Below, piece by piece: positions 883-36,176 of a DNA stretch of 39,698 bases; positions within the stretch are counted from its first letter, which is position 1; every line of letters starts with the position of its first letter. A model generated the notes under the pieces. The model did not search any database and had not been told where the DNA came from. It worked only from the letters and a program-made list of their open reading frames with translations. The position numbers and the translations under genes were made by a program. Origin of the DNA: Pseudomonadota bacterium. Lineage in GTDB: Bacteria > Pseudomonadota > Gammaproteobacteria > Steroidobacterales > Steroidobacteraceae. The stretch is taken from contig JAPLSF010000289.1 in the NCBI GenBank assembly GCA_026398785.1, forward strand, positions 1 to 39,698. Direction: 5' to 3'.

Positions 883-911
883 GGGAAACGCGCTGTGCGA
901 AAGGAACGCAA

Positions 912-1403: not shown

Positions 1404-2629
1404 GCGGCCCCCAGGCGGACCTGCAGGCGGCCCTCGACCAGCTTGTCGCGCGGGTTCGCGGATTGCAGTTCGACCGTCGCGCCATCGCGGCTCATGGCCT
1501 GCTTGATGCCGTCGAGCGCTTCCACGTTCGGTGCGACGAGATGCAGTTCGAGCACGCCCGCCCGGAAGCTGATGGCTTCGACGCGCGTGGCCGGCGCCCG
1601 TGCGATGGCCTGTGCCAGCAATGACATCGCGGGGAGCAGGGCACCGTTGCCGCCGCCGGCGCGAGCCAGCACGCCCTGGATCTGCGCACGCGGATCGACG
1701 ATCGGCTGCCCGGGCAGGATCTGGTTGAAGGTTGCGGCGATCTGCGCGTCGAGCTGCTTCTCGGCCTGGTGCAGCTGCCAGAGCTTGAAGCCCTGCGCGC
1801 CGAGGAAGACAACCAGCGTCGCGACGGCGAGCGCGGCCGGCAGCCGCCACTGCGGCAGCTGCGAGCCGAACGACGTCGGCGCCGCGTAGGCGCCCTGCAG
1901 CAGGTTGATCGGTCTGGCGACCGGCACCTGCGCGGCCAGCAGGGGCAGCGTGCCGTCGGGCAGCAGCTTGACCTGCAGCGTGGCGGTGCGCGCCCGCAAG
2001 CCTTCGATCGTTTCCTTGTGTGCTTCGTAATCAGCCGTCGAGGCGTAGAGCGTGACGTGTTCGCCGGCTTCGGTCTGCTCGCCGAGCGCGAGTTCGAACG
2101 CGGTCTGCAACGATTCGGTGTCGAGGGCGTAGGCGGATTGATCAGGCCGGCTTACGTGCAGCGTGCCTGCGTCGAGCACGAGCACTGACGCGTTCGGCGC
2201 GGACGGGATCAGCGAGGATTCGGCATAGGCCGCGTCCGGGCGGATGCCGGCGGCGTCCCACATCGCCTGCCAGCGCTCGAGCGTCGCACGGGCGACGATC
2301 GCGACGGGCATGGCGCTCGACGCTGCATCGCGATGGCCGATGGCGAAGTGCAGGTTTTCAAGCTCGGAGGCGAGGTGTTCTTCGAGCGCGAAGGGGATTG
2401 CCTGCGCGATGCGGGCCGCACCGCGGACCGGTGGCAGGTCCGGACGGGCCAGCGTGACATCGGAGGCTGGCAGGACCACCACGGTGCGCCGGGCCTGGGC
2501 CAGGGCGAGCGCGTCGGCGATCGGGCCGCTCTGGACATTGCCCGAACGGGCGCCGTTGGCGTCGACGATCAGCCAGGACGCTGGCGCGTCCTCGGGCGCC
2601 CGGAGACGGATCACCAGGGTTTCAGTCAT
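1400..2629 (-). CDS. gspL: Type II secretion system protein L (GspL)
   Basis: Bitopic inner-membrane protein that links the cytoplasmic ATPase GspE to the GspM/pseudopilus platform. The product is 409 residues. Residues 1-255 form the actin-like cytoplasmic domain (VVVLPASDV; QAIPFALEEHLA), ending with the hallmark INLLQGAY at about 241-248. A membrane helix follows at about 263-281, then a periplasmic ferredoxin-like domain. The start is the ATG at 2629, four bases after the gspK stop. The frame is open another 39 codons into gspK, but that extension has no family resemblance. Overlaps gspM by four bases. Confidence 0.9.
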   Translation of the reverse strand: MTETLVIRLRAPEDAPASWLIVDANGARSGNVQSGPIADALALAQARRTVVVLPASDVTLARPDLPPVRGAARIAQAIPFALEEHLASELENLHFAIGHRDAASSAMPVAIVARATLERWQAMWDAAGIRPDAAYAESSLIPSAPNASVLVLDAGTLHVSRPDQSAYALDTESLQTAFELALGEQTEAGEHVTLYASTADYEAHKETIEGLRARTATLQVKLLPDGTLPLLAAQVPVARPINLLQGAYAAPTSFGSQLPQWRLPAALAVATLVVFLGAQGFKLWQLHQAEKQLDAQIAATFNQILPGQPIVDPRAQIQGVLARAGGGNGALLPAMSLLAQAIARAPATRVEAISFRAGVLELHLVAPNVEALDGIKQAMSRDGATVELQSANPRDKLVEGRLQVRLGAA

Positions 2630-2633
2630 ACGG

Positions 2634-3596
2634 TCATTCGGCTCCGAAACTGCGCAGGACAGGTCGCACCGTTCCGGCCCCACCGCGCGCGAGGAGACTG
2701 TACAGGGTGAACTGGGTAGTGCCAATAGTGACCCATACGGTCGCACGGAAGTAAGTGCTTGATTCCGAAAGTGTGTCCTTGATCTGATCGTAGTCGGCCT
2801 GGCCGAGCGTGCCGCGCAGGTCGTCGAGCGTCGGGAAGCAAGCGTCCTTGCGCCGTTTGGCCAGATCCTCGGGATTCAGGCCGAACTGCCGCTGCGATTC
2901 CGAGAGCGAGTCGAGCACGATGCCCGGTGCCGTGCAGACGTTCAGCTTGGTGCCGACCGGCAGGGCCGTGACATACGGCTGCAGGCGGCGAAAACGCTCG
3001 GCGCCGAACTCGGGCAGCACCATGAGTTCGCTGGCGCGGGTGATCGGCATGTTGGCCGCGAGGTGCGGGGGATCGAGTCCCGTGTAGACCGAGTCTTCGG
3101 CGCCGTCCGGAAAGCCCGGCTGGGTATCGGCGTCGATCCAGTCCGCCATGGCAATGGCCCAGGTCGGCTCGAGCTCGAGCATGCTGAGGATGCGCTCAAG
3201 TTGCTTGACCGCTTTGGCGTTGGTCGTGCCGTCGCTGAATACGAGGTTGTTCAGGTTGAAGCGGCCCTGCATGTCTTCGATGCGACCTTCGACCGTGCCG
3301 ACGCCTTCGTCGATCGGCAGGGCCGACATCGACCTGGCCCAGATCTCGCCTAAATGGTCGGTCTGCGAGTCCTGTGCGTCCTTGCGCAGGATGTCGGCGG
3401 CCCAGGCTTCCGCGCCGAGCGCGACTTCGAAGCCCTGGTCGAGCGCGAACAGGTTGGCGCTGCGACGCTGGTCGACCATGCCGCGGAACGTCACGTTGAC
3501 CGCGAGGATCGTCGCGAGCGCGACGATCAGCACGGCCATGATCAGTGCGACGCCACGCTGGTGTGCCGGGAAAGAGGCGTTTTCCCGCCGTCGCAT
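2634..3596 (-). CDS. gspK: Type II secretion system minor pseudopilin K (GspK)
   Basis: Large minor pseudopilin that caps the pseudopilus tip together with GspI and GspJ. The product is 320 residues. The prepilin cleavage site is at Gly15/Val16 (QRGVALIM), and the usual Glu at mature position +5 is replaced (Met20), the known exception that marks GspK. The body contains QGRFNLNNLV, MADWIDADTQPGFPDGAED and the helix-hairpin-helix-like ITRASELMVLPEFGAERF block characteristic of the family. Its start shares one base with the gspJ stop (TGATG). Processing would be by the prepilin peptidase, which is not in this window. Confidence 0.93.
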   Translation of the reverse strand: MRRRENASFPAHQRGVALIMAVLIVALATILAVNVTFRGMVDQRRSANLFALDQGFEVALGAEAWAADILRKDAQDSQTDHLGEIWARSMSALPIDEGVGTVEGRIEDMQGRFNLNNLVFSDGTTNAKAVKQLERILSMLELEPTWAIAMADWIDADTQPGFPDGAEDSVYTGLDPPHLAANMPITRASELMVLPEFGAERFRRLQPYVTALPVGTKLNVCTAPGIVLDSLSESQRQFGLNPEDLAKRRKDACFPTLDDLRGTLGQADYDQIKDTLSESSTYFRATVWVTIGTTQFTLYSLLARGGAGTVRPVLRSFGAE

Positions 3597-4243
3597 CAGC
3601 CCGCAACCTCGACGATGCGCTTGATCTCGCCCCAGTCCTCGAGGTCGAGCGTGACTTCGACCGCGGCAGGTCGCAGCCGTTCCTGCTCGACGGGATTACC
3701 GCCCAGCTGTGGCCAGCGGTCGACCCATTCCAGCGATGGCGACATGAAGCGGAACGTCACCGCGCGGACGCCGCTCAGGAGCCGCACGCGCACGGGTTCG
3801 GCAGCCTGCGTGCGATCGAGCACGCGCCAGTGGTCGCGCCAGAGGCCGTCCTGGTCCAGACGATAGCCAACGCGTTGCAATGTTGGCCGCGGCAGGCCCG
3901 CGGTGTTCATCCAGCCGGAACGCGTGAACTCGAGCTTGTATTCGACCGACTCGCCGGCCAGCACGGCGGGCACCCGCTGGTCGCCGATCGGCTCCCGGAT
4001 CGGGCGCGGCTCGATCTGCGTGAGGTCCTGCGCCAGCGTCTGTACGGCGCGCTGCACCTCTCGCACGCGTTCGAGACGCAACTGCTGGTACTCGGTCTGC
4101 TTCTGCAGCTGCGTGTAACCCGACAGCGCCATCACGCCGACGAACGCGAAAATGGCGATCGCCACCAGCACTTCGAGCAGCGTGAAGCCGCGCGCGCGGG
4201 CCGCAAAGCCTGAAGACCGGTGCCGGAACGTGCGGAGGCTCAT
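3596..4243 (-). CDS. gspJ: Type II secretion system minor pseudopilin J (GspJ)
   Basis: Minor pseudopilin of the GspH-I-J-K tip complex. The product is 215 residues. The prepilin signal has cleavage after Gly19 (ARG/FTLLEVLVAI), the conserved Glu at mature position 5 (E24) and a hydrophobic helix to about residue 40. The following YTQLQKQTEYQQLRLERVREVQRA amphipathic helix region (about 42-65) and the distal VRAVTFRFM and WPQLGGNPVE segments match GspJ. Starts with ATG at 4243, overlapping the gspI stop by four bases. Confidence 0.92.
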   Translation of the reverse strand: MSLRTFRHRSSGFAARARGFTLLEVLVAIAIFAFVGVMALSGYTQLQKQTEYQQLRLERVREVQRAVQTLAQDLTQIEPRPIREPIGDQRVPAVLAGESVEYKLEFTRSGWMNTAGLPRPTLQRVGYRLDQDGLWRDHWRVLDRTQAAEPVRVRLLSGVRAVTFRFMSPSLEWVDRWPQLGGNPVEQERLRPAAVEVTLDLEDWGEIKRIVEVAG

Positions 4244-4776
4244 TCTTCCGCGTCCGTTGGCAAGCCCGGCGGCAGGCTTGGGGCCTTACCCGGCGCTGGC
4301 ACTGACCCATCCGTGCCTTCTTCGGCGCCCTCGGTGCCAGGCGCGCCGGTGCCGGCCCACTGCGTGCCGCCTGCACCGGCGCCGCCCACGGCGTCGCCGT
4401 AGAAACCGGAGACGTTGGCGAGCGGCGTGCCGTCGGGCGTTTCTGCCCGGCGCACGGCGATGTCGATGCGCCGCAGGCTCGCGACCTGGGTCTGCGTGAC
4501 CTGCATCGACCACTGCCATTGCTGGTCCGCGAATTCGACGCGGCCCGTCGATTCGGCGATGTCAGGTGCCGACGCCTGCAGGCGTCGCTCGGTCAGCACG
4601 TTCATGCCGATCCAATGCGCCAGCGTCTTGTCGCGCAGGTAAGTGCCGTTGCGTGCCGACTGCGTCACGGCCTGGATCGCCGCGATCATGCCGAGCGCGA
4701 CGATGACGAGCGCGGCCAGCACTTCGATCAGAGTGAAGCCTTGCTGGGCAGGTGAGCGAGTGGCGGACGGGCGCAT
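4240..4776 (-). CDS. gspI: Type II secretion system minor pseudopilin I (GspI)
   Basis: Minor pseudopilin that nucleates the tip complex with GspJ and GspK. The product is 178 residues. The prepilin site is QQG/FTLIEVLAALVI with Gly13, Phe14 and Glu18 (mature +5). The family core follows: KTLAHWIGMNVLTERRL and a WQWSMQVTQT strand. The C-terminal 45 residues are Gly/Pro/Ala-rich (AGAGGTQWAG onward) and extend beyond the usual GspI fold, which normally ends near residue 130; this looks like a low-complexity tail. ATG start at 4776, two bases after gspH. Confidence 0.9.
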   Translation of the reverse strand: MRPSATRSPAQQGFTLIEVLAALVIVALGMIAAIQAVTQSARNGTYLRDKTLAHWIGMNVLTERRLQASAPDIAESTGRVEFADQQWQWSMQVTQTQVASLRRIDIAVRRAETPDGTPLANVSGFYGDAVGGAGAGGTQWAGTGAPGTEGAEEGTDGSVPAPGKAPSLPPGLPTDAEE

Positions 4777-4778
4777 CG

Positions 4779-5327
4779 TCAGCGTTTTTCGCGGGTGTCG
4801 TCGTGCACTTCGAGCTTGCCTTCGACCGTGCCGCTGACGCGGCGCCGCTCGTCGGTGCCGTCGCGAGCGAAGCCGACGTCGAATGGAACCTGTTCACCCG
4901 ACGCCTGCAGGATCACCTGCGGCTGAATCGGGTCGCGCTCGGTCGCCGGCGCGCGTGGCTTCAATTGCACGTTGCGGTCCTCGAGCCGCAGCGAAAGCCG
5001 CAGACCTTCGGGCATCGAGCGCGCGCGCAGCAGGGGATCGTCCTCGACCGCGTTCCAGCGTTCGACGCGGCCGTCGTACGCTAGAAATTCGTAACCCGTG
5101 GCGTCGAGCCGCATGCCGATGTCGCGGCTCTGCAGGATGGCGTCCTCGCGCGTTTGCAGCAGGATAGCCTGCAGGCGTTCGGCCTCCTGCTGCATCTCGT
5201 GATCGCCGCCGAGTACGTTGACGGAGATCACTGCCATCGAGGTAAGGATGCCGATGATGACGACGACGACGAGCACCTCGAGCAGCGTGAACCCCGAGGC
5301 GCGGCGCGCGGCCACGAGCCGCGGCAC
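4779..5327 (-). CDS. gspH: Type II secretion system pseudopilin H (GspH)
   Basis: Minor pseudopilin thought to connect the tip complex to the GspG fibre. The chosen start is GTG at 5327, four bases after the gspG stop, giving 182 residues and a short leader MPRLVAARRASG/FTLLEVL (cleavage after Gly12, mature Glu5 = E17). An ATG at 5363 is also in frame but would overlap gspG by 32 bases and give an unusually long leader. The hydrophobic helix VVVVIIGILTSMAVISV is followed by GspH-type QEAERLQAILLQTREDAIL and GYEFLAYDGR segments. The gene choice is firm; the exact start is less so. Confidence 0.88.
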   Translation of the reverse strand: MPRLVAARRASGFTLLEVLVVVVIIGILTSMAVISVNVLGGDHEMQQEAERLQAILLQTREDAILQSRDIGMRLDATGYEFLAYDGRVERWNAVEDDPLLRARSMPEGLRLSLRLEDRNVQLKPRAPATERDPIQPQVILQASGEQVPFDVGFARDGTDERRRVSGTVEGKLEVHDDTREKR

Positions 5328-5331
5328 GGCG

Positions 5332-5769
5332 CTATTCGATGTTCCAGTTGCCGATGTCGGCATCGGGTCCTTCGCCGCCCGGCTGGCCGTCGGCCCCGAG
5401 CGTGTAGAGGTCGTAGTCGCCACGGGTGCCTGGCGCGATGTAGGCGTAGTCGTTGCCCCACGGATCCTTCTTCAGCCCGTCGATATAGCCGCCGTCCTTC
5501 CAGTTCTTGATGTTCGGGTCGGCGGGACGCGTGACGAGCGACTGCAGGCCCTGCTCGGTGGTCGGGTAGCGGAAGTTGTCCATGCGGTACAGGTTGAGCG
5601 CCGTCTCGTAGGCACGGATGTCCTGCTTGGCCTTGATGATGCGCGCATCGTCGATGCGACGGATCACGTTCGGCGCGACCAGCGCGGCAAGGATGCCGAG
5701 GATCACGACGACGACCATGATTTCGATGAGCGTAAAGCCGCGAATGCGGCGCAATCTGGTAAATGTCAT
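5332..5769 (-). CDS. gspG: Type II secretion system major pseudopilin G (GspG)
   Basis: Major subunit of the periplasmic pseudopilus that pushes substrates through the secretin. The product is 145 residues, the normal family size. The leader is MTFTRLRRIRG/FTLIEIMVV, with cleavage after Gly11 and Glu at mature position 5. The fold is highly typical: IIKAKQDIRAYETALNLYR, then TTEQGLQSLV, then GGYIDGLKKDPWGNDYAY, and the calcium-site loop near GDYDLYTLGADG. First gene of the minus-strand operon gspG-H-I-J-K-L-M-N. GspC, D, E and F are not in the window, so they must lie elsewhere. Confidence 0.97.
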   Translation of the reverse strand: MTFTRLRRIRGFTLIEIMVVVVILGILAALVAPNVIRRIDDARIIKAKQDIRAYETALNLYRMDNFRYPTTEQGLQSLVTRPADPNIKNWKDGGYIDGLKKDPWGNDYAYIAPGTRGDYDLYTLGADGQPGGEGPDADIGNWNIE

Positions 5770-15736: not shown

Positions 15737-16807
15737 TCAGCGGATCAGCGTATCGGCGAGACCAGTCTCTGCTATGCCGCCGCGCAGCACGTAGACTTCG
15801 AAACCCCGCTCACTCAGGATGTATGCCGCGGCAGAGCTGCGACGGCCGTTGTCACAGACCACGACGTAGCGGATCGCCGGGTCAAGCGTCTTGATCTTCA
15901 GGCGGATGAAGTAGAGCGGCACGTTGAGCGACGGCTCAAAGTGCCAGTGCTCGTACTCGCTCGGCAGGCGCACGTCGAGCCACATGCCGCCCTTCGCGAC
16001 GATCTGCAGGCCCTGCTCGTGGTCGACCCACTGCAGCATCGGCTCGTTGAGCAGGGTGTTGAAGTCGTCCTTGGCGAGGCGCATCAGCACGCCATCGGTC
16101 AGCATCGTGATCGTGGCATTGCGCCTGGCGCCGGAGATGAGGGCTTCCTCACCGAAGGTCTCGCCGATACCCAGTTCCGCGAGCCGGATGCCTTCGCGGT
16201 TGAGTGGCGTCTCGCGGCTGACCGAGCAGCGGCCCGAGACGATCACGTAAAAAAAGTCGCCTTCCTCGCCCTGGCGGATGACCACGTCGCCCGCCGAGTA
16301 ATCCATCCGTTGCAGGCGCATGAATACGGCCTGCAGGTTGGCCGGCGGAATGCGGTGGAAGGCCCGACTCTGCAGGAGCATGGTCATCCAGTCGTCCGAC
16401 GATCCGTTGCCGGCGCCGAGTTCGCCGACTTCGTAGATGCCCGTCTGGTCCCAGGTGATCAGGACGTCGAGCAGGTCGCTGTCGATGGACAGGTAATCGA
16501 TCTTTTCGGAGGCCACCCGCGCCGTGCAGTTGCGGGGCAGGATCGGCGCGAGTGGGTGGTGTGCATCGGTCGTGCCCCCTCGAATCGTGCCGATGATGCG
16601 GCTGTCCGACAGCAGTTCGACCACCCCGCTCACGAGGTAGTACGTCCGCTTCTCAGTGTCGCCTTCCTTGAACAGGACGCGGCCCTGCGCCAGCTCGCGG
16701 ATGACGGTCTTGCGCGCGAGCGCCCGCAGGTTCTCGTTCTTGAGCCCGTCGAGCGGTGAAAACGCACGGAGGACGCTCAGTTCGACGGTGGTCGGATCGC
16801 TGCTCAT
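15737..16807 (-). CDS. Double cyclic-nucleotide-binding-domain protein with C-terminal rhodanese domain
   Basis: The product is 356 residues, predicted cytoplasmic. Residues ~14-115 form a first, divergent cNMP-binding domain (VLFKEGDTEKRTYYLVSG). Residues ~148-255 form a better second one (VIRQGEEGDFFYVIVSG, then FGEEALISGARRNATIT, the phosphate-binding cassette region). Residues ~262-350 form a rhodanese domain (WLDVRLPSEY) with active-site loop CDNGRRSS and catalytic Cys318. No helix-turn-helix is present, so it is not a CRP-type regulator. A TTG 15 bases upstream is an alternative start. It is 31 bases downstream of the FadB-like gene and probably cotranscribed with it. Domain calls are solid; the biological role is unknown. 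Confidence 0.85.
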   Translation of the reverse strand: MSSDPTTVELSVLRAFSPLDGLKNENLRALARKTVIRELAQGRVLFKEGDTEKRTYYLVSGVVELLSDSRIIGTIRGGTTDAHHPLAPILPRNCTARVASEKIDYLSIDSDLLDVLITWDQTGIYEVGELGAGNGSSDDWMTMLLQSRAFHRIPPANLQAVFMRLQRMDYSAGDVVIRQGEEGDFFYVIVSGRCSVSRETPLNREGIRLAELGIGETFGEEALISGARRNATITMLTDGVLMRLAKDDFNTLLNEPMLQWVDHEQGLQIVAKGGMWLDVRLPSEYEHWHFEPSLNVPLYFIRLKIKTLDPAIRYVVVCDNGRRSSAAAYILSERGFEVYVLRGGIAETGLADTLIR

Positions 16808-16838
16808 GAAGACCCGCTGCAAAAGGTGCAGGATGGTA

Positions 16839-27747: not shown

Positions 27748-28284
27748 TCACTCGCCCGACCTTCCGGTCGATGCGGTGGGTGATTTGGAAATCGCGGCAA
27801 GAATGCCGGCCAGGATGCGCGTGGGGGACGGCGGGCATCCAGGCACCACGACATCCACGGGAATCACGTTCGCGACGGCGCCGCAGCTGGCATAGCTCGT
27901 ACCGAAGATTCCACCGCAAGCACCACAGTCGCCCACTGCAACCACCAGTTTGGGGTCCGGGGTGGCGTCGTACGTGCGACGGAGCGCAACCTCCATGTGG
28001 CGCGACACCGGGCCCGTGACCAGCAGCAGGTCCGCGTGGCGCGGACTGGCAACGAAGCGGATGCCAAGCGACTCGATGCTGTAGATCGGGTTGCACAGCG
28101 CATGGATCTCGAGTTCGCAGCCATTGCAGGAGCCTGCATCGACTGCGCGGATGCACAGCGCGCGACCGAGCACTGTGCGGATACCCGCTTCCAATGCCTC
28201 GCGCACGCGCAGTTCGTCAGCCGGAGCCGGTGGGGCTTCGGTGACGAGGCCGGTCTTCAATATCTGTTGCAGGGTCTTGAGCAT
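27748..28284 (-). CDS. hyfI: HyfI/NuoB-like small subunit of an Ehr-type complex
   Basis: Electron-transfer subunit equivalent to NuoB/HycG/HyfI, expected to hold the cluster (N2-like) nearest the large subunit. The product is 178 residues. Four cysteine ligands are intact: Cys53 and Cys56 (GSCNGCELEI), Cys120 (VGDCGACGG) and Cys150 (VPGCPPSP). The N-terminal 40 residues form a short extension typical of Hyf-type small subunits. Last gene of the six-gene operon, eight or nine bases after the large-subunit gene. With no NuoI/HyfH-type ferredoxin subunit encoded here, how electrons would reach this cluster is unclear. Confidence 0.88.
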   Translation of the reverse strand: MLKTLQQILKTGLVTEAPPAPADELRVREALEAGIRTVLGRALCIRAVDAGSCNGCELEIHALCNPIYSIESLGIRFVASPRHADLLLVTGPVSRHMEVALRRTYDATPDPKLVVAVGDCGACGGIFGTSYASCGAVANVIPVDVVVPGCPPSPTRILAGILAAISKSPTASTGRSGE

Positions 28285-28293
28285 GTGCCGGGA

Positions 28294-29829
28294 TCAGAGG
28301 TCGTGACCGCTGTAGGACAGATTGAACGACTTGTTGATGAGCGGAAAGTCGGGAACGATGTTGCCGATGATCGCGTGCTCGAGCGCGGGCCAGTTGTGCC
28401 AGGACGGGTCCTGCGGATGACAGCGCAGGATGCTCCCGTCCGCTCCTGCCTCCAGGCCCACGACCACGGGTCCGCGCCACGCCTCGATGAGTCCGACACC
28501 GACTGCTCCGGCCCGCGGTACGGTCACGGCGATCACGTACTCGCCGGACGGCAGCGCACGCAGGATTCGCCGCACGATGCGCACCGACTCGACGAATTCT
28601 TCGAAACGGAGGGTGACTCGGGCCAGCACATCACCGCCCAGCTGTACGGACCGGCGCACCTCCAGCTCGTCATAGGGCGCGCACGCCGCGTCCACGCGCA
28701 GGTCGAGCAGCTGGCCGCTTGCTCGTCCGGCGAGGCCGACGAGCCCGAGCCAGGCGGCGAGTTCCGGCAGCACGGCGCCCGCTCCAGCGAACCGATCCCG
28801 CAGGCCGGTGTGCTCGTCGTAGATACCGCGCAGTGCCGACACGTCATCGGTGAGTTGAACCATGCACGCATCGAGCGCTGCGGCACCGGCCGGAGCGAGG
28901 TCGTGGCGCGTGCCGCCCGGCACGACGAAGTCGAGCAGGTAGCGTTGTCCAAGCGCCTGTTCGGTTGCACGCAGCAGTTGCTCCTTCAGGCGCGAAAACT
29001 GCGCGAGCCCGAAGGCGAATCCGGCATCATTGCCGAGCGCACCGAGGTCGCCGAGGTGGTTGGCGATGCGCTCCAGTTCGAGCGCCAGCGCCCGCAGCCA
29101 CGACGCTCGCCGTGGCACCGCGGTCCCCGTCATGTCCTCGAGTGCCTGGCAATAGGCCCACGCATAGGCCACGCCCGAGTCACCGGACACCCGCGCCGCG
29201 AGGCGGTGTCCGTCGAGGATCGGCTGTTCGGTGAAGCGTCGCTCAATGCCCTTGTGCGCGAAGCCCAGGCGTTGCTCTAGCCGCAGCACCTTTTCACCCA
29301 CCACGGAGAAACGGAAGTGGCCGGGCTCGATGATGCCGGCATGCACCGGGCCGACCGCAATCTCATGGACGCCATCGCCCTCGACCCGCACGAACGCGTA
29401 ATCGTCGAGCGGAGACTGAGGTGACGAGGGCATCGGGTCGGCGGACAACGGGAACGCGTCCGCGGGCCATGCGGCATGGCGCAGCCAGGGCCGGGTGTCC
29501 CGCTCAGTCGATCGCAGGCCACACAGATCGAACACGGCCCGCTGCATGCGGCTGGCTGATGGGAACACGTCCTCGACGCCGGGGTACTGTCGGGTGCCGT
29601 CCGCGATCGGAACGCTGATCAAGAGTACGCGCGGTGGTGCGATGGCCACTGCATGGAGCGTGTCGCACTGCCCGACCCGATTCGTGCCCCAGAGCGCGAG
29701 CAATCGTCCCCCGGCGGCTGCAATGTCCTGCGCCAGGTCACGCCACTCGAGCGGGTCGACCACGAGTTGTGAGATGGCCGCTCCGTCATGAGTCGACGTC
29801 GCCCGAGTCATCCAGCGCGAGAGGCTCAC
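28294..29829 (-). CDS. hyfG: HyfG/NuoCD-like large subunit without NiFe-binding cysteines
   Basis: The product is 511 residues. Residues 1-~130 are a shortened NuoC-like (30 kDa) domain, and the rest is the 49 kDa/hydrogenase large-subunit fold: VGPVHAGIIEPGHFRFSVVGEK (about 159-180), LGFAHKGIERRF, LELERIANHLGDLGAL. In true NiFe hydrogenases two CxxC motifs bind nickel. Here the first reads RVSGDSG (213-219, both Cys replaced by Asp/Ser context) and the C-terminal one reads DFPLINKSFNLS (494-505) without cysteine. It therefore cannot hold a NiFe centre. GTG start at 29829, one base after the hyfF-like stop. The catalytic role, if any, is unknown. Confidence 0.88.
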   Translation of the reverse strand: MSLSRWMTRATSTHDGAAISQLVVDPLEWRDLAQDIAAAGGRLLALWGTNRVGQCDTLHAVAIAPPRVLLISVPIADGTRQYPGVEDVFPSASRMQRAVFDLCGLRSTERDTRPWLRHAAWPADAFPLSADPMPSSPQSPLDDYAFVRVEGDGVHEIAVGPVHAGIIEPGHFRFSVVGEKVLRLEQRLGFAHKGIERRFTEQPILDGHRLAARVSGDSGVAYAWAYCQALEDMTGTAVPRRASWLRALALELERIANHLGDLGALGNDAGFAFGLAQFSRLKEQLLRATEQALGQRYLLDFVVPGGTRHDLAPAGAAALDACMVQLTDDVSALRGIYDEHTGLRDRFAGAGAVLPELAAWLGLVGLAGRASGQLLDLRVDAACAPYDELEVRRSVQLGGDVLARVTLRFEEFVESVRIVRRILRALPSGEYVIAVTVPRAGAVGVGLIEAWRGPVVVGLEAGADGSILRCHPQDPSWHNWPALEHAIIGNIVPDFPLINKSFNLSYSGHDL

Positions 29830-29830
29830 G

Positions 29831-31288
29831 TCATTGCCCCACGATCATGCTGGCCGCGGCTCGATACCATTCGGCGAGGTACGGAGGGATGTACAGGCCG
29901 AGGAGCAATACCAGCGCCAGGTGCGCGAACACCGGCAGGAGGGCCGGCTGATGCGGCAGGCGCCGCCCCGTCGATTGACCGAGCACCATCGATTGCACGC
30001 GGCTGAAGACTGCCGCGAATGCCACGCCCAGGGCCAGCAGCAGGATCGGGGTGGCCCACGGCTCCTGTTTCATCGCGGTGGTCAGGATCAGGAACTCGCT
30101 GGCGAACACGCCGAAAGGCGGGAACCCGAGGATCGCAATCGAGCCGAGCATGAGGCCCCAGCCGATCGTGGGATTGAGTGCCAGCAGTCCGCGGATGTCT
30201 TCGATCTTCTGCGAGCCGGTCTTCTGGGCTGCATGACCCACCGCAAAGAAGATCGCCGACTTGGTCAGCGAATGCACGGTCATGTGCAGCAGGGCGGCAA
30301 AGTTGGCGACGGCTCCGCCCATCCCGAAGGCGAAGGCGATGATGCCCATGTGCTCGATCGACGAGTAGGCGAACAGCCGCTTGATGTCGCGCTGTCGCCA
30401 GAGGAACAGGGCTGACAGCACGACGGAAAGCAGCCCGAAGACCATCAGGATCTTCGACGGCAACGACGACTGCAGCGCTCCCTCCACCAGGATCTTGCAG
30501 CGCACCACGGCGTACATCGCAACGTTGAGCAGCAGGCCCGACAGTACGGCGGATACCGGCGTCGGACCTTCCGCATGCGCATCCGGCAACCAGTTGTGCA
30601 GGGGCGCGAGCCCGACTTTCGTGCCGTAGCCCACGAGCAGGAAGGCAAATGCCAGCCCGAGCACCGTGGGCTCGAGATCGCCCTTCACGGCCGCCAGGTG
30701 CGTCCACAGCAGCGCGCTGACACCTTCGGCGCCGAGAACCTTCTCTGCAGCGAAATACAACAGGATCGTACCGAACAGCGCCTGTGCTATGCCGACGCCG
30801 CACAGAATGAAATACTTCCAGCCGGCCTCGAGGCTCGCCGGAGTCCGGTACAGCGTCACCAGCAGCACGGTCGACAGCGTCGCCGCCTCGAGCGCCACCC
30901 ACAGCAGGCCCATGTTGTTGGTCGTGAGCGCCACCAGCATCATCGTCATGAAGAGCTGATACATAGAGTGGTAGAGCCGCAGCCGCCCCTGGCTCAGGCG
31001 GCCGTGCTCGGTCTCGATCCTCATGTAGGGCCGCGAGAAGATCGCCGTCGTCAGGCCCACGAATGCGGTCAGCGTCACGAGGAACACGTTGAACGGGTCC
31101 AGGAAGAACTGCTCGTTCGCCGCCGTCAGGTTGCCCTCGTTGATCACCCGCACGGTGACCGCCACTGCTGCGAGGAAGGTACCGAAGCTCAATGCGATGT
31201 TGATCTCGGCGGCACGCGGACGTGCACCCCACACGGCGAGCAGCACTGCCCCGAGCAATGGAGTCAGCAGCAGCACTGCAAACTCCAC
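29831..31288 (-). CDS. hyfF: HyfF/NuoN-like proton-conducting membrane subunit
   Basis: Antiporter-like membrane subunit of the complex, 485 residues, about 14 hydrophobic segments. The proton-channel residues are present: Glu134 in TM5 (WVALEAATLST) and Lys224 in TM7 (GYGTKVGLAPLHNWLPDAH), with the family signature GPTPVSAVLSG. The TM8 position that is Lys in the HyfB-like partner is Asn255 here. SIEHMGIIAFAFG and KIEDIRGLL follow as in HyfF/HycC relatives. GTG start directly abuts the hyfE-like stop (TAG then GTG). Probably pumps or conducts protons (or Na+) across the inner membrane. Confidence 0.9.
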   Translation of the reverse strand: MEFAVLLLTPLLGAVLLAVWGARPRAAEINIALSFGTFLAAVAVTVRVINEGNLTAANEQFFLDPFNVFLVTLTAFVGLTTAIFSRPYMRIETEHGRLSQGRLRLYHSMYQLFMTMMLVALTTNNMGLLWVALEAATLSTVLLVTLYRTPASLEAGWKYFILCGVGIAQALFGTILLYFAAEKVLGAEGVSALLWTHLAAVKGDLEPTVLGLAFAFLLVGYGTKVGLAPLHNWLPDAHAEGPTPVSAVLSGLLLNVAMYAVVRCKILVEGALQSSLPSKILMVFGLLSVVLSALFLWRQRDIKRLFAYSSIEHMGIIAFAFGMGGAVANFAALLHMTVHSLTKSAIFFAVGHAAQKTGSQKIEDIRGLLALNPTIGWGLMLGSIAILGFPPFGVFASEFLILTTAMKQEPWATPILLLALGVAFAAVFSRVQSMVLGQSTGRRLPHQPALLPVFAHLALVLLLGLYIPPYLAEWYRAAASMIVGQ

Positions 31289-31957
31289 CTACTGGTCCTC
31301 CTTGAGCGATTCGAGGTTCTGCAGGTCGAGGCTGTCGAACTGCTCGCGAATCTGGAAGAAAAACACCCCGAGAACCAGCATCGCGACCAGCACGTCGAGC
31401 GCCACGCCGAATTCCACGATCATCGGCATGCCGTAGGTGGCGCTCATGGCGCCGAAGAACAGGCCGTTCTCCATCGACAGGAATCCGACCACCTGCGACA
31501 TGGCCTTGCGGCGCGTGATCATGGTGATGAACGCGAGCAGGATGACCGCCACTGCAATCCCCAATGAATTGCGGGTCGCAGTGCTCGCGAGCTGGGCGAT
31601 CGGCTGGGCGAGGCCAAAGGAGAACACCACGGTGACGAGCCCGATGAGCATCGTGCCCGGCACGTTGAGCAGCGGTTCGCTGTCCCACTGCACGTTCAAG
31701 CGCTTGATGAGCGCGTGCAGCAACCACGGCAACGCAATGACCTTGAGCCCGAGCGTCAGCGCCGCGGAGACGTACAGGTGATTCTGTCCGGTGCGCCAGG
31801 CGAGCAGCATCGTGGCGATGAACAGCATGGCGCCCTGCAGCGCCAGGAGATTGACGAGCGCCACTATGCGTCGCTGCGCGAGCATGGCGAACGACAGCAG
31901 CAGCAGGATCGCAGCGCAGGCGTTGAGCAGTTGCAGGTCCAATGGCGTGTGCTGCAT
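31289..31957 (-). CDS. hyfE: HyfE/NuoK-like membrane subunit
   Basis: Small membrane subunit of 222 residues with about seven hydrophobic segments, related at its C-terminal half to NuoK/MrpC. Recognisable parts: LLALQGAMLFIATMLL, LYVSAALTLGLKVIALPWLL, RKAMSQVVGFLSMENGLFFGA (with the NuoK-type Glu) and EFGVALDVLVAMLVLGVFFF. It lies between the HyfC-like and HyfF-like genes, the standard position of HyfE. ATG at 31957, three bases after hyfC stops. It would line the ion path between the NuoH-like and NuoN-like modules. Confidence 0.88.
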   Translation of the reverse strand: MQHTPLDLQLLNACAAILLLLSFAMLAQRRIVALVNLLALQGAMLFIATMLLAWRTGQNHLYVSAALTLGLKVIALPWLLHALIKRLNVQWDSEPLLNVPGTMLIGLVTVVFSFGLAQPIAQLASTATRNSLGIAVAVILLAFITMITRRKAMSQVVGFLSMENGLFFGAMSATYGMPMIVEFGVALDVLVAMLVLGVFFFQIREQFDSLDLQNLESLKEDQ

Positions 31958-31960
31958 GCC

Positions 31961-32911
31961 TCAGGCTCCCAGCAGCAGGTGCACGAGCAGGCCCAGCACC
32001 GCGAACATGAACGCGGTGGCCATGAACTCGGGTGCGCGGAACACGCGGAACTTGGCGGAAACCGTCTCCAGCAGTGCAAGCCACAGGCCGGCGACGGCAA
32101 GCTTCGCCAGCAGCGCCGGGATCGACCAGGCCAGCGCGCCAATCCCGGTCTCGCCGATGGACGCGCCCCACGGCACGAACAGCGCAAAGCCAATGCAGGC
32201 GTAATTGAACAGCTTCAGGGCAGCGGCCCACTCCATCAGCGCGAGATGCCGCGCGGAATACTCGAGCAGCATCGCCTCGTGGATCATGGTGAGTTCGAGG
32301 TGCGTCGCCGGATTGTCCACTGGAATGCGGGCATTCTCCGCGAGCAGCACCATGGTGAAGGCGACCGCCGTGAACGCGAGGCTCGGATACAGGGCGAGCG
32401 GCTGAACCATGAGCCGTTCCGCGATCAACGGCAGGGCCGTGGTCGCGGAAATCAGCGAGGCAACGAAGATGATCATCAGCAGCGCCGGCTCGGCGAGGAA
32501 ACCGATCATCATGTCCCGCCGCGCGCCGAGCGTGCCGAATGCGGTACCGATGTCCATCGCAGCAAGCGACATGAAGACACGCGCGATCGCCAGGAGACCC
32601 ACCAGCGCGATTGCGTCGGCCGCCGAACGAAAAGGCAGGCCCGTGCCCATCGAGGGAATCACCGCCGCTGCGGCAACCATCGCGCCGAACACGACATACG
32701 GCGCCATGCGGAACAGCGGTGACGCGCTTGCCGCGATCACGGCATCCTTGTGGAACAGCTTGCGAATGCCGTGGTAGGGGAGCAGCACGCTCGGTGCGCG
32801 CCGGTTCTGCAGCCAGGCGCGGCACGCGTTGACCCAGCCGAGGAACAGCGGGGCAAGGAGCAGTGCTGCGAGCACCTCCAGGAACTGCGTGAGCCAGGCA
32901 ACCGCGCTCAC
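31961..32911 (-). CDS. hyfC: HyfC/NuoH-like membrane subunit
   Basis: The product is 316 residues with about eight membrane helices, equivalent to NuoH/HycD/HyfC, the subunit that couples the peripheral redox arm to the membrane arm. The conserved charged loop is present: ENARIPVDNPATHLELTMIHEAMLLEYSARHLALMEWA (about 214-251, many acidic residues), as are the cytoplasmic RKLFHKDAV and FGTLGARRDMMIGFLAEP segments. ATG at 32911 overlaps the hyfB-like stop by four bases. The intact charged loop suggests coupling is retained even though the NiFe site is lost. Confidence 0.9.
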   Translation of the reverse strand: MSAVAWLTQFLEVLAALLLAPLFLGWVNACRAWLQNRRAPSVLLPYHGIRKLFHKDAVIAASASPLFRMAPYVVFGAMVAAAAVIPSMGTGLPFRSAADAIALVGLLAIARVFMSLAAMDIGTAFGTLGARRDMMIGFLAEPALLMIIFVASLISATTALPLIAERLMVQPLALYPSLAFTAVAFTMVLLAENARIPVDNPATHLELTMIHEAMLLEYSARHLALMEWAAALKLFNYACIGFALFVPWGASIGETGIGALAWSIPALLAKLAVAGLWLALLETVSAKFRVFRAPEFMATAFMFAVLGLLVHLLLGA

Positions 32912-34911
32912 AGCATCACCGCGAGCAGCACCACCAGGGTGATGAAGCTGTATGTCAGGTAGACCGAGATGCGGCCTTGCTGCAACCAGGCCACGGAGTT
33001 TGCGGCCCGCTGCAACAGTCCGGCGATCGGCAGGTAGACCACTTTCCAGAACCGGTCACTGACCTTGACCCGGTAGCGTGGCGCCAGGTCGAGCGGCGAG
33101 GGCAGTTCTCGCTCCATTTCGAAGAATGAAACGAAGATGTGGCGGATCGGCTGGCCAAAGCCCTCGGCCGTGTCCTGCATGCGCGGATCGAGCCGCCCGA
33201 AGCCACAGTCCCAGGTCGGGGCTCGACGCACGGGGCGACGGTACACGATGCGCACGATCAGGAAGGTCGCCGCAACCACCGCGACGATGACCGCCAACAG
33301 GACCAATGGGGCGTACGACACTGCCCGCTCGGTCAACGGCGCCAACATCCACCACGACTGACCTGCAAGGTTCGGTGCGGCACCCACCAGCTGCTCGGTC
33401 GCTGCGCCAAGCGCGTGAATCACCTGGTTGGGCAGCAGTCCCAACAGCACGCACCCGATCGCCAGCCAGACCAGGCCCGCCTTCTCGAATCCATCCACGT
33501 CGTGCGCAACGGCAAGCGAGGCTTCGCGAGGCTGCCCCAGGAAGACGATGCCGAAGAACTTCACCATGACGTAGCCGGCGAGTGCAGCCGCGAGCGCCAC
33601 GATGGCGGCACCCAACGGCAGCAGCATGTTCACGAACGGTTGCGGCACTTCATGGGAAAACAGGAACGTCTGCAGCAGCAGCCACTCGGACACGAACCCG
33701 TTCAACGGCGGCAGGCCCGCGAGCGCGAGGACGCCCACCAGTGTCAGCCAGGCAGCCCACGGCATGCGGTGAATAAGCCCGCCGAGCCGGCCGAGATTGC
33801 GTTCGCCCGTGGCGTGCAGTACCGCGCCGGTGCCGAGGAACAGCAGGCTCTTCATGAACGCGTGGTTCAGGGAGTGATACAGAACCGCGATCAGCGCGAG
33901 CGCCGCGAGTTCGGTCATGCCTACGCCATGAAAAACGATGGCCAGTCCGATGCCGGTAAACAGCACGCCGACATTTTCGACCGATGAATAGGCGAGCAGA
34001 CGCTTCATGTCCGTCTGCACCGCGGCGAAGACCACGCCAAAGATCGCCGTGGCCAGTCCCAGCGCCAGCGGGATCAGGCCCCACCACCAGAGTGGGTCGC
34101 CGATCAGGTCGAACGTCACTCGCAACACACCGTAGATGGCGGTCTTCAGCATGATGCCGCTCATGAGCGCCGACACGGGCGAAGGTGCCGCCGGGTGTGC
34201 TTCCGGGAGCCATACGTGCAGCGGCAGGAGCCCGGCTTTGGTGCCAAAGCCAAACAGCGCGAGCAGGAAGGCGGCGGTGGCCCACGGAGTCGACAGCGTG
34301 CTCTCGCGCATGGCGTCGAACGAGAACAACCAGGTGCCGCCCTGCATAATGCCGAAGCTCAACAGGATGGCGATTGCACCGACGTGTGCCATGAGCAGGT
34401 ACAGGAATCCGGCGCTGCGAATTTCCGGGATGCCGTGCTGGGCGGTCACCAGGAAATAGGACGTCAGGGCCATCGTCTCCCACGCGACCATGAACGCGTA
34501 GGCGTCGTCGGCAACCAGCACGAAGCCCATGCTGGCGAGAAAGAGGTGGTACTGGAGGCCCAGCACCCCCGGTGCCGTTCCCTCACCCTTGCGGAAATAG
34601 CCAGCCGCGAACAGCGAGACACCGGCAGATGCGCTGCCGAGGAGGGCCAGGAACACGCGGGAAAGGTTGTCCAGCCGCACGTGCATGGGCAGGTCGGGCA
34701 AGCCGATGAGCAGGGTGCCGCGCTCGACCGGTGTGGCGAGGCTCAGGGCAGCCGCGATTGCAAGACAGGCACCAATGATCGCGCCGAGCGGAAACAACAC
34801 TCGGCCGACCAGCGCGACGCTGTTCGGCCGCAGCAGTCCGGCAGCACCCACCACTGCCCAGCACGCGAGCAGCGCCAGGCAAATAGTCAGGGGCGAGTCG
34901 AACAGGGCCAT
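32908..34911 (-). CDS. hyfB: HyfB/NuoL-like proton-conducting membrane subunit
   Basis: First gene of the operon. The product is 667 residues with 14-16 membrane helices of the NuoL/MrpA type. Channel residues: Glu145 (VAWETMALTS), Lys225 (GFGTKAGLLPLHVWLPEAH), His232 and Lys256 (GIMLKTAIYG). The signature APSPVSALMSG and the TM12 charge in NGFVSEWLL are also intact. The C-terminal tail (RAPTWDCGFGRLDPRMQDT, then QPIRHIF) is the one seen in HyfB/HycC, separating it from Nuo and Mrp proteins. ATG at 34911, in the divergent promoter region with the ribbon-helix-helix gene. Confidence 0.9.
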   Translation of the reverse strand: MALFDSPLTICLALLACWAVVGAAGLLRPNSVALVGRVLFPLGAIIGACLAIAAALSLATPVERGTLLIGLPDLPMHVRLDNLSRVFLALLGSASAGVSLFAAGYFRKGEGTAPGVLGLQYHLFLASMGFVLVADDAYAFMVAWETMALTSYFLVTAQHGIPEIRSAGFLYLLMAHVGAIAILLSFGIMQGGTWLFSFDAMRESTLSTPWATAAFLLALFGFGTKAGLLPLHVWLPEAHPAAPSPVSALMSGIMLKTAIYGVLRVTFDLIGDPLWWWGLIPLALGLATAIFGVVFAAVQTDMKRLLAYSSVENVGVLFTGIGLAIVFHGVGMTELAALALIAVLYHSLNHAFMKSLLFLGTGAVLHATGERNLGRLGGLIHRMPWAAWLTLVGVLALAGLPPLNGFVSEWLLLQTFLFSHEVPQPFVNMLLPLGAAIVALAAALAGYVMVKFFGIVFLGQPREASLAVAHDVDGFEKAGLVWLAIGCVLLGLLPNQVIHALGAATEQLVGAAPNLAGQSWWMLAPLTERAVSYAPLVLLAVIVAVVAATFLIVRIVYRRPVRRAPTWDCGFGRLDPRMQDTAEGFGQPIRHIFVSFFEMERELPSPLDLAPRYRVKVSDRFWKVVYLPIAGLLQRAANSVAWLQQGRISVYLTYSFITLVVLLAVML

Positions 34912-34939
34912 GTCGCCATTCTACTCCAATGTAAATTGC

Positions 34940-34961
34940 ATTATAATCATGGTCACATGAC
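34940..34961. promoter_or_regulatory. Symmetrical divergent promoter with an adjacent inverted repeat
   Basis: The 72-base gap between hyfB and the ribbon-helix-helix gene is AT-rich. ATTATAAT (34940-34947) is a perfect palindrome that places a TATAAT -10 hexamer on both strands. Five bases on, GTCA-CA-TGAC (34952-34961) is an inverted repeat that could be an operator. The -35 regions are weak on both strands, which would suit a regulated promoter. Function inferred. Confidence 0.4.
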
Positions 34962-34983
34962 TTTGGCGCTGTAAGGAATTCGC

Positions 34984-35193
34984 TTGCCACTCGAGGATCG
35001 CACCGCCCGATTGACCGTGCTGATCGACCCCCGCAAGAAGGCGCTGCTCGAGCGCATCTGCGCGGAGCAGGACACCACGCCCTCGCAGGTCGTCCGGCAA
35101 TTGATCAGGCGCTACATCGAGGACCAGACGGGCATGCCTTGGTCACCCGAGGAGCCTGACGTGGTCGAGCAGCGGGCCGGAAAGAGAAGTTGA
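34984..35193 (+). CDS. Ribbon-helix-helix (CopG-type) DNA-binding protein
   Basis: The product is 69 residues. The first part reads RTARLTVLIDPRKKALLERICAEQDTTPSQVVRQLIRRYIE (about 6-46): one beta strand then two helices, the RHH/MetJ-Arc fold that binds operators as dimers. The TTG start at 34984 is supported by AAGGA six bases upstream; no ATG fits. Its stop overlaps the next ATG (TGATG), so it is coupled to the methyltransferase-like gene. Being next to an inverted repeat in the divergent promoter, it is a candidate local regulator of itself and of the Hyf-like operon. Confidence 0.8.
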   Translation: MPLEDRTARLTVLIDPRKKALLERICAEQDTTPSQVVRQLIRRYIEDQTGMPWSPEEPDVVEQRAGKRS

Positions 35194-36176
35194 TGACCCG
35201 CAAGTCTGATCGTTTGCCGCAGCGAAGGCGCATCACGCGCTTGAAAGTGGCCTCGTCGCCGCCGGACGGTTGGGGATTGATGAGCCGGCAAGATGAGGAC
35301 CTGCTGTCGCTGGGCGGACTCACGATCGATCCTGGCACGCTGGTGCGCGTGCTGGAGCCGACTGCAGCCGCGTCGGCCGTGCTGTGCCAGCGGCTGATGT
35401 CGGGCACGTACGACAAGCCCTTCCTGGTCGAAGACGACAAGCACCGCGCGCTGTGCTTCACGATCGACGGCAGCGTCCAGAGCGAGATGCGCATCGACGA
35501 TCCGGACGCGCTCGTGAACGACTACACGCGCAAGATGATGGGATTCCTGCTGTTCTGTCCTGAGCCAGGACGCGTCCTCTTGATTGGGCTCGGTGGCGGG
35601 TCGCTGGCCAAATTCTGCAATCGCCACTTGCCGTCGACGCACGTCACGGCCGTCGAGATCGATGCGAACGTCATCGCATTGCGATCGCATTTCAAGATTC
35701 CTCCGGATGGCGCCGATCTGCGTGTGATCCACGGCGACGGCGCCCGCTATGTCGCGGACCTGATCGACGCCACGGAATTTCCTGATGTGCTGTTGGTCGA
35801 TGCCTACGATCGCAATGGAATTTCGCCATCGATCGCGGAATACGAGTTCCTGGAGCACTCCCGTCGCATCCTCGGGGACAGCGGAGTGTTCGTGATGAAC
35901 CTCGCGGCCCATGAATCGGCCAGCACGACACAGGTGGAGAGAATCCGCCACGTATTTGGCGACCCCGTCATTCCGGTCACCGTCGGGTGGGGCGGCAACA
36001 TGGTCGTCTTCGCGGGGCCCGCTTTGCGCGATCGGCAGCGACTGGCTGCCGCCCCAGCGAACGCTCGTCGCCTGCAGAAAACCCTCGACCTCGACTTCCG
36101 GATCCTTCCGGATCTGGTGCGGAAGCACCTGCAGGAGGCGCAGCAAGCGCCGGCGCATCCTGATCCGGTTCAGTAA
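35193..36176 (+). CDS. Spermidine-synthase-like SAM-dependent methyltransferase-fold protein
   Basis: The product is 327 residues. The Rossmann-like core has motif I VLLIGLGGGSLAKF (about 128-141), the acidic motif II VTAVEIDANVI, HGDGARYVADL and DVLLVDAYDRNG, in the order of spermidine synthase (SpeE) relatives. The first ~120 residues hold a beta-rich N-terminal domain (ALCFTIDGSVQSEM). Such proteins are annotated as spermidine-synthase-like; real polyamine synthesis cannot be assumed, because key propylamine-transfer residues were not verified. ATG at 35193; a TTG one codon earlier is possible. Downstream of and coupled to the RHH gene. Confidence 0.82.
   Translation: MTRKSDRLPQRRRITRLKVASSPPDGWGLMSRQDEDLLSLGGLTIDPGTLVRVLEPTAAASAVLCQRLMSGTYDKPFLVEDDKHRALCFTIDGSVQSEMRIDDPDALVNDYTRKMMGFLLFCPEPGRVLLIGLGGGSLAKFCNRHLPSTHVTAVEIDANVIALRSHFKIPPDGADLRVIHGDGARYVADLIDATEFPDVLLVDAYDRNGISPSIAEYEFLEHSRRILGDSGVFVMNLAAHESASTTQVERIRHVFGDPVIPVTVGWGGNMVVFAGPALRDRQRLAAAPANARRLQKTLDLDFRILPDLVRKHLQEAQQAPAHPDPVQ

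Follow-up and report, generated by a model that had tools for sequence, protein, structure and literature searches.

What does a membrane complex built like hydrogenase 4 do when its large subunit holds none of the cysteines that bind nickel? The question is raised by a 39,698-nucleotide stretch of DNA (the window: GCA_026398785.1, contig JAPLSF010000289.1, positions 1-39,698 of the forward strand) from a member of the Steroidobacteraceae, whose metagenome-assembled genome (MAG; 409 contigs, 85% complete) carries one copy of the complex. An earlier interpretation of the DNA made without database searches (the sequence-only reading) had placed six hyfB-C-E-F-G-I-like genes in a tight operon at 27748-34911. 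Indeed, six open reading frames (ORFs) with profile matches lie there on the minus strand, with a 4-base overlap or a spacing of 0-9 bp between neighbours in the ORF list:

32908..34911, minus strand: hyfB-like antiporter-type subunit, 667 residues, with E145, K225, K303, K354 and E409 present in 72/72 relatives
31961..32911, minus strand: hyfC-like membrane anchor, a NuoH/HycD homologue, 316 residues
31289..31957, minus strand: hyfE-like membrane subunit, 222 residues
29831..31288, minus strand: hyfF-like antiporter-type subunit, 485 residues
28294..29829, minus strand: hyfG-like large subunit, NuoC-like plus NuoD/HycE-like, 511 residues, without NiFe cysteines
27748..28284, minus strand: hyfI-like small subunit, 178 residues, with [4Fe-4S] ligands C53, C56, C120 and C150

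Pfam/NCBIfam profiles identify B as hydrogenase 4 subunit B (862 bits against a cut-off of 667) and F as hydrogenase 4 subunit F (838 bits against 543); E matches the hydrogenase-4 membrane subunit with 90 bits, under the cut-off of 136, C matches NADHdh, G matches Complex1_49kDa and Complex1_30kDa, and I matches Oxidored_q6. The earlier assignment to the Ehr complexes is in keeping with these subunits, which are homologous to those of group-4 hydrogenases and complex I and include antiporter-type members, and with a large subunit that lacks the CxxC pairs. The complex belongs to a known and widespread group called Ehr, 'hyfBCEFGI' or rhizobial Hyq, for which the names conflict: databases use 'hydrogenase 4' for subunits B and F, physiology papers speak of an endo-hydrogenase for one branch, and others of an Ehr complex of unknown function.

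The large subunit reads RVSGDSG and DFPLINKSFNLS in place of the CxxC pairs, as had been noted before, and the window's former NiFe ligand positions are S215, S218, S505 and G508. We aligned HyfG from 120 family members, 90 of them from loci, 5 from class genomes and 25 from a phylum scan. The 92 loci comprise the best 80 of at least 566 encoding stretches that seven aligned relatives retrieved from named genomes; to these were added the window, five more relatives and six plasmid records, and L044 was excluded because it duplicates L062. Absence of the nickel-binding cysteines is no peculiarity of the window: the four positions are S/S/S/G in 88 relatives and S/T/S/G in 13, a single cysteine is left in 8/120, and no relative keeps two or more. 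Seven residues, D217, N499, K500, S501, N503, Y506 and D510, are invariant in 120/120. The 80 loci were fetched by patterns over G residues 161-168 and 251-258, which in those rows accounts for part of the conservation of H163, E168 and H258; the patterns do not cover D217, N499-N503, Y506 or D510. The codons on which the argument turns are these:

29326..29328, minus strand: E168, equivalent to HycE E193, the proton-donor Glu of the beta1-beta2 loop (120/120, inside the search pattern)
29179..29181, minus strand: D217, a new Asp within the former CxxC, RVSGDSG (120/120)
28321..28335, minus strand: N499-K500-S501-F502-N503, with N503 at the position of the canopy Asp (HycE D529)

Position 217 is I, I, L and V in HycE, HyfG, NuoCD and NuoD, respectively. 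Complex I has a conserved Tyr in its quinone pocket, and in the alignment D217 lies one residue past the position of this Tyr; the quinone-site His and Tyr of complex I correspond to I167 and G216, both in 120/120. The hydrogenase carboxylate of the beta1-beta2 loop is reported to sit where complex I has its quinone-protonating His, and the canopy aspartate D529 of formate hydrogenlyase has been called strictly conserved (PMC9474812, in the sections covered); in this family the canopy position is Asn (N503) in 120/120. Apart from the canopy Asp, the residues that deliver protons in hydrogenases and in complex I are kept (E168, H258, R369, E411 and R452): HycE H284, E437 and R478 correspond to H258, E411 and R452, present in 120/120 each, and R395 corresponds to R369, which is Arg in 116/120 and Lys in the other 4. 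The loss of an acid from the canopy together with the gain of one in the old CxxC is not what decay would give, and the alignment shows a pocket under strong selection, a site that was retooled, not lost. The statement that Ehr complexes share the losses seen here is therefore correct for the CxxC pairs, whose loss is common, but undersells the change, as an invariant new motif replaces the ligands. HyfG ends three residues past the last former ligand position, leaving no C-terminal extension to cleave. We met no description of the D217/N503 motif, or of the HyfH stub considered below, in the open-licence papers searched, mostly as listings and with no search directed at the two linked genes, and the remodelling of the NiFe site into an invariant polar pocket is, as judged from aligned sequences, a new result. 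HycE of E. coli formate hydrogenlyase (7z0s_E, E 1.7e-50) is the best match among solved large subunits, with the archaeal hydrogenase MbhL and complex I behind it, and the AlphaFold model of G (mean predicted local distance difference test, pLDDT, 82.8) is likewise nearest to 7z0s_E (TMq 0.83), then to complex I NuoCD.

Pump residues and cluster ligands are intact. The ion-channel residues noted earlier are present throughout, E145 and K225 of B in 72/72 relatives and E134 and K224 of F in 84/84; in HyfF, K303 is also invariant (84/84) and E398 is found in 99%. The NuoH-like charged loop of HyfC had been called intact, which holds for most of the acids of the E-channel but not for the equivalents of HycD E199 and E201, which are A202 and H204; H204 and H211 are family-specific (76/76). 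All four small-subunit ligands, C53, C56, C120 and C150, are kept in 87/87 relatives. Sequence bears out the description of an Ehr-type complex, Cys-less and of the complex I superfamily, whose pump is intact, and shows an intact antiporter-type arm, most of an E-channel and one N2-like [4Fe-4S] site in HyfI.

Where might such a complex come from? In a tree of 44 rows, among which Geobacter EhrL, MbsL, MbxL and A. caulinodans HyqG are not represented, the 29 family rows form one clade (100/98), and the family clade groups with the Ehr-B sequences L057, L090 and L129 (100/96). The next branch, weakly supported (93/58), is L102, in which all four cysteines are present; the tree program flags NuoCD and L043 as long branches. 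The three Ehr-B sequences carry GD[ST] at the old CxxC, and two of them, L057 and L090, have D217 with Asp retained at position 503. N499 and K500 are shared with the four-cysteine L102 and are therefore probably older than the loss of nickel; D217 and N503 are absent from L102, which is a candidate living intermediate. It comes from a betaproteobacterial groundwater MAG (L102:1740-4450), where a four-cysteine group-4-like large subunit with an NKSF motif precedes a small subunit fused to a ferredoxin-like domain, the pair lying directly upstream of an Ehr-A operon. Diverged second operons of Ehr type adjoin the Ehr-A operon at L057:1-3323, L090:17767-21515 and L129:15224-21504, and another such operon lies elsewhere in the genome at L043:6999-14442 (with L046).

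The small subunit may hold a further trace of this history. Residues 1-18 of HyfI resemble the N-terminal segment of HyfH/HycF. A matrix built from 79 of 87 members, after an attempt with a hidden Markov model (HMM), scores HyfH at 6.4, the L102 fusion at 3.2 and HycF at 3.1, with 2.9 for the best of 1075 decoys, and finds no match to E. coli HyfI, HycG or NuoB. The 23-residue HMM of the stub, too short to decide, ranks HyfH second of 1084 proteins (E 0.65) and does not list the L102 fusion. Three small subunits that are diverged or sister to the family's, those of L102, L057 and L043, include a ferredoxin-like domain. The simplest reading, and the probable history, is that HyfH was fused to HyfI and that its cluster domain was then deleted with the anchoring helix retained. 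Group-4 [NiFe] hydrogenases have a separate HyfH-type 2x[4Fe-4S] subunit, of which the window operon has only the stub in HyfI; 'no ferredoxin subunit', as the sequence-only reading put it, is accurate in that the operon has no HyfH gene, but what is seen looks like a domain deletion.

That reading had also called the electron donor and acceptor of Ehr complexes unsettled. The substrates proposed below are indeed ones that we infer, but the rhizobial Hyq complex has a published phenotype in diazotrophic growth and H2 turnover, and thus the family is not without functional data. By its published description, Hyq of Azorhizobium caulinodans (hyqRBCEFGI, AZC_4360-4355) has the same six genes in the same order, a large subunit without CxxC pairs and a single N2-like cluster site. 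The homologues of R. johnstonii 3841 and A. brasilense carry GD[SA] and NKSFN motifs as in the window, and that of R. johnstonii falls in the same clade, with a helix-turn-helix gene upstream where the window has a divergent ribbon-helix-helix (RHH) gene. As reported in the sections covered of PMC2650096 and PMC3357923, Hyq expression is NifA-dependent and the doubling time on N2 is 21% longer in the A. caulinodans hyq deletion mutant. At 20 µM O2, H2 release (pmol per 1e9 cells per min) was 12 in the parent, 16 in a hup-minus strain, 175 in a hyq-minus strain and 540 in the double mutant, that is, about 15- to 34-fold more without hyq; below 1 µM O2 it depended strongly on hyq and was 61,000 in hup-minus, 14,000 in the double mutant, 56,600 in nifK hup-minus and 1,100 in nifA cells (PMC3357923, same sections). 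The same source notes that HyqG of eight genera lacks both CxxC pairs, calls a NiFe site 'uncertain, if not unlikely', and proposes three 'completely conserved' cysteines (258, 491 and 497) instead. The window has G266, I498 and L504 at these positions; all three cysteines occur together in only 9/120 relatives and all are absent in 74/120, the window included, so they are not the family's common site.

Among 370 genomes of the window's class, which its named relatives suggest to be Gammaproteobacteria, 52 have the complex, and a nifH match is found in 16 of these 52 as against 19 of the 318 without it (odds ratio 7.0, p 1.4e-6; 5.8 when stratified by NiFe genes), in line with the published nif link of Hyq. 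The complex also tracks NiFe-hydrogenase genes (23/52 versus 66/318, odds ratio 3.0; 2.2 stratified by nifH), and lifestyle may therefore explain part of the nifH signal. These genomes are not phylogenetically independent, with 34 families having the complex, 25 having nifH and 13 having both in one genome. A link to RuBisCO was considered and dropped, as RuBisCO was found in 28/52 genomes with the complex and 158/318 without (p 0.65). The window itself may differ from Hyq here: no exact match to the NifA-box consensus, TGT-N10-ACA, lies near hyfB, and its genome has no nifH match, as judged from an 85% complete MAG.

Taken together, retention of the cluster and of the proton path speaks for redox-coupled pumping, and the changes in the pocket argue against both NiFe chemistry and a canonical quinone site. 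We tentatively favor, at somewhat under an even chance, a reversible, proton-pumping oxidoreductase between a low-potential donor and the quinone pool, a nickel-free descendant of a membrane [NiFe]-hydrogenase. In this proposal the complex, of Ehr/Hyq type in the complex I superfamily, would have kept the redox-linked proton pump of its hydrogenase ancestor and given up nickel. A soluble low-potential carrier, ferredoxin- or flavodoxin-like, would dock on the face opened by deletion of the HyfH domain and exchange electrons with the HyfI cluster, which in turn would exchange them with the membrane quinone pool; within the remodelled pocket, E168 and D217 might protonate quinone in the roles that His and Tyr have in complex I, and the reaction would be coupled through HyfC to HyfB and HyfF. 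It could run in either direction, pumping protons or spending the proton-motive force to make low-potential reductant. The earlier suggestion of a pump that still couples a redox or conformational event to ion movement agrees with the intact pump and cluster, its substrates being conjectural. In A. caulinodans, deletion of Hyq slows N2-dependent growth and shifts H2 release in both directions, as reported in the covered sections, which speaks for the proposal.

Several observations weigh on the other side. No donor gene was recognised beside the operon, and the docking of a ferredoxin is a step that we infer. The stub matrix does not match NuoI or the small-subunit fusions of L057 and L043, and the pocket segments of the G model (143-193 and 500-511) have a pLDDT below 50, so that no pocket geometry was obtained. 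No nifH match was found in 36 of the 52 complex-bearing genomes. The authors of the 2012 Hyq study infer H2:quinone oxidoreductase activity (PMC3357923, in the sections covered), and a hup-minus, hyq-plus value of 16 against 540 in the double mutant at 20 µM O2 is hard to explain with a donor:quinone enzyme alone. Nothing speaks more strongly against a donor:quinone enzyme than the published H2 data, which also keep a NiFe-free hydrogenase in view, at low probability.

Such a NiFe-independent hydrogenase, whose polar pocket beside the [4Fe-4S] cluster would activate H2 and which would act as the H2:quinone oxidoreductase proposed for Azorhizobium Hyq, seems improbable to us. It would account for the dependence of H2 release on hyq at 20 µM and below 1 µM O2 and agrees with the noted absence of both CxxC pairs from HyqG of eight genera (both PMC3357923, in part), with the shared motifs of the R. 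johnstonii 3841 and A. brasilense homologues, and with a hydrogenase proton path kept except for the canopy Asp. The deletion, however, also took out the regulator hyqR, the low-oxygen table lists no nifK hup-minus strain in which hyq is deleted and has about 20% of the H2 persisting without hyq, and isolated-protein work is absent from the sections of the paper covered. The proposed cysteines are scattered through the family as described above, and the canopy Asp has become Asn in every member. The Hyq genetics suggest a role linked to H2, and the alternative based on cysteines is contradicted in the family as a whole. A bolder version can be formulated, in which a nickel-free hydrogenase of the complex I superfamily would split or form H2 in a polar E/D/N/K/R pocket by its single [4Fe-4S] cluster, D217 replacing the metal-bound base, with direct coupling to the proton pump; we consider this a long shot. 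An ordinary [NiFe] hydrogenase-4 or formate hydrogenlyase, which the automatic names 'hydrogenase 4 subunit B/F' imply and for which the genome's other NiFe hydrogenases and maturation genes might be cited, is scarcely credible: all four Ni/Fe ligands are missing, there is no C-terminal extension and no HyfA, D or H, and the sequence contradicts it.

Two further explanations do without hydrogen, and we rate both as unlikely. A complex-I-like quinone reductase with a canonical quinone site could be fed by an unlinked dehydrogenase (for formate, CO or another substrate) docking as FdhF does in formate hydrogenlyase. The fold and the cluster position are those of complex I, a pairing of formate dehydrogenase with Ehr has been suggested in other lineages (PMC6349859), a carbon monoxide dehydrogenase is reported beside hyfBCEFGI in Ca. 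Nitrospira nitrosa (PMC5596200, in the part covered), and in Geobacter the abundance of Ehr subunits was higher with formate than under conditions that included hydrogen (PMC7894505). The canonical His and Tyr are nevertheless absent and the canopy Asp changed in 120/120, and inspection by eye of the 30 largest neighbour clusters from the 92 loci revealed no dehydrogenase for formate or CO; short-chain and zinc-alcohol dehydrogenase-like clusters occur at 6 and 4 loci, at a median distance of 5.9 and 4.0 kb. The other explanation is a redox-silent ion transporter, an Mrp-like antiporter or pH-regulating channel whose G/I arm and cluster would be structural or sensory, as the lack of a recognised linked electron donor, the missing HyfH domain and the lost NiFe site might suggest; a purely structural arm, however, would need neither cluster ligands kept in 87/87 nor a proton path kept at four positions in 120/120 and as R or K at the fifth. 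The invariant D217/N503 exchange is a point mutation on which the competing views disagree. If the energy-coupling role is true, the short one-cluster pump would be a very small machine for testing complex-I-type coupling; if the H2 role is true, hydrogen chemistry without nickel would follow.

Comparison with better known relatives places these features. E. coli hydrogenase-3 and -4 (HycE/HyfG) share the fold, the membrane arm, most of the proton path and the cluster site with the window, which lacks their NiFe ligands, HyfA, D and H, canopy Asp and maturation extension. Respiratory complex I (NuoB/CD/H/L/M) shares the superfamily, the cluster position and the pump residues; the window lacks its quinone His and Tyr, has no NADH module in the operon and retains the hydrogenase-type EPGHF loop. 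The same gene set is reported in A. ferrooxidans, where it is classed as having a 'non-hydrogenase catalytic subunit' (PMC7735108), and in comammox and nitrite-oxidising Nitrospira (PMC5596200; both in the parts covered). It also occurs in Cupriavidus metallidurans CH34, whose G is 60% identical to that of the window. The window's branch differs from those of A. ferrooxidans, CH34 and Nitrospira by its RHH and spermidine-synthase-like neighbours. To our knowledge there are no functional data for the hyfBCEFGI complexes of A. ferrooxidans, C. metallidurans or Nitrospira. Ehr complexes in the wide sense (Geobacter, Sulfobacillus, comammox and Cyanobacteria-sibling lineages) are described as lacking NiFe motifs, Geobacter ehr having been compared by description, and Ehr-type complexes are reported, in the part of the source covered, from hot-spring Nitrospira and Sulfobacillus; PMC3578206 yielded no statement on Ehr.

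The family is common and widespread. Within the window's order the complex is found at E < 1e-100 in 7/117 genomes, the window's own counted (53 matches at E 1e-10 are mostly NuoD-like), and a phylum scan with E. coli HycE matched 64/249 genomes, the best 30 of whose 64 loci comprise 25 of the Cys-less type and 5 true hydrogenases. The BCEFGI order is complete in 75/92 loci, and 13 of the other 17 end at a contig edge. Four loci, L126, L136, L137 and L138, lack genes for other reasons, which may be real loss or an assembly effect: HyfI is missing after G in L136 (11446 onward) and L137 (Thiorhodococcus drewsii, 11512 onward), L126 (1-6114) is without B or C, and L138 (1-2586) has only G. The neighbour ORF caller can lose genes where frames overlap. 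Frames of 705-1089 residues around G in eight genomes, considered as fusions, are read-through of overlapping frames.

Two recurrent neighbour genes were missed by the sequence-only reading; they are listed with a sequence element close to them:

34984..35193, plus strand: ribbon-helix-helix gene (RHH_9, PF19839), 69 residues, divergent from hyfB
35190..36176, plus strand: spermidine-synthase-like gene (PF01564; PRK04457 with 193 bits, under the cut-off of 304), which overlaps the RHH gene at its stop
34940..34949, minus strand: TGATTATAAT element in the region that separates hyfB from the divergent regulator gene

The two genes form the largest non-operon neighbour clusters of the 92 loci (RHH gene in 23, spermidine-synthase-like gene in 14). 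A conserved catalytic partner was also looked for, and inspection by eye of the first 100 residues in the remaining 28 listed clusters gave no hint of a shared redox partner. An RHH gene lies at most 800 bp upstream of hyfB in 25 of the 72 loci with enough upstream sequence, 18 times divergently, as against 6 matches in the remaining 1.5 Mb. TGATAAT or TGATTATAAT, on either strand, occurs in 13 of the 18 divergent intergenic regions where 0.1 is expected in random segments, the motifs having been chosen after the sequences were viewed. A sigma54-like match with two mismatches lies at 34974-34989, total counts being at chance level, and no sigma70-type promoter match was found at 34800-35250. 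The spermidine-synthase-like gene is a linked accessory in part of the family: it lies at most 10 kb from G in 13 of the 15 best-matching plasmid records (Burkholderiales), a count that includes near-duplicate records, and in 0 of the 45 other records among the 60 listed of 89 that match G. On a Variovorax plasmid (L057), two spermidine-synthase-like copies flank the operon.

The earlier statement that hyp, HyfH/NuoI and NADH-module genes are lacking applies to the window, where none of them (NuoEFG for the NADH module) was found among the scanned ORFs, a few short ORFs lying outside the scan; it does not extend to the genome, which has complex I and NiFe maturation genes. Complex I pieces (NuoD, NuoI and others) lie on contigs C86, C200 and C338. 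Contig C276 encodes a group-1-type NiFe hydrogenase together with a cytochrome of b type and genes resembling those for HupD, HyaE and HupH, and C53 encodes a hydrogenase of Hox-like type; none of these is the contig of the operon. HypD was not found in the genome, which says little at 85% completeness. No Rfam match and no tRNA were found in the window, and its remaining scanned ORFs are unrelated to the complex (type II secretion, lipid and folate genes, and others). Among them, a type II secretion cluster (GspN, L, K, J, I, H and G) occupies the left end at 226-5769, and positions 15737-16822 encode a protein that combines a cyclic-nucleotide-binding with a rhodanese domain.

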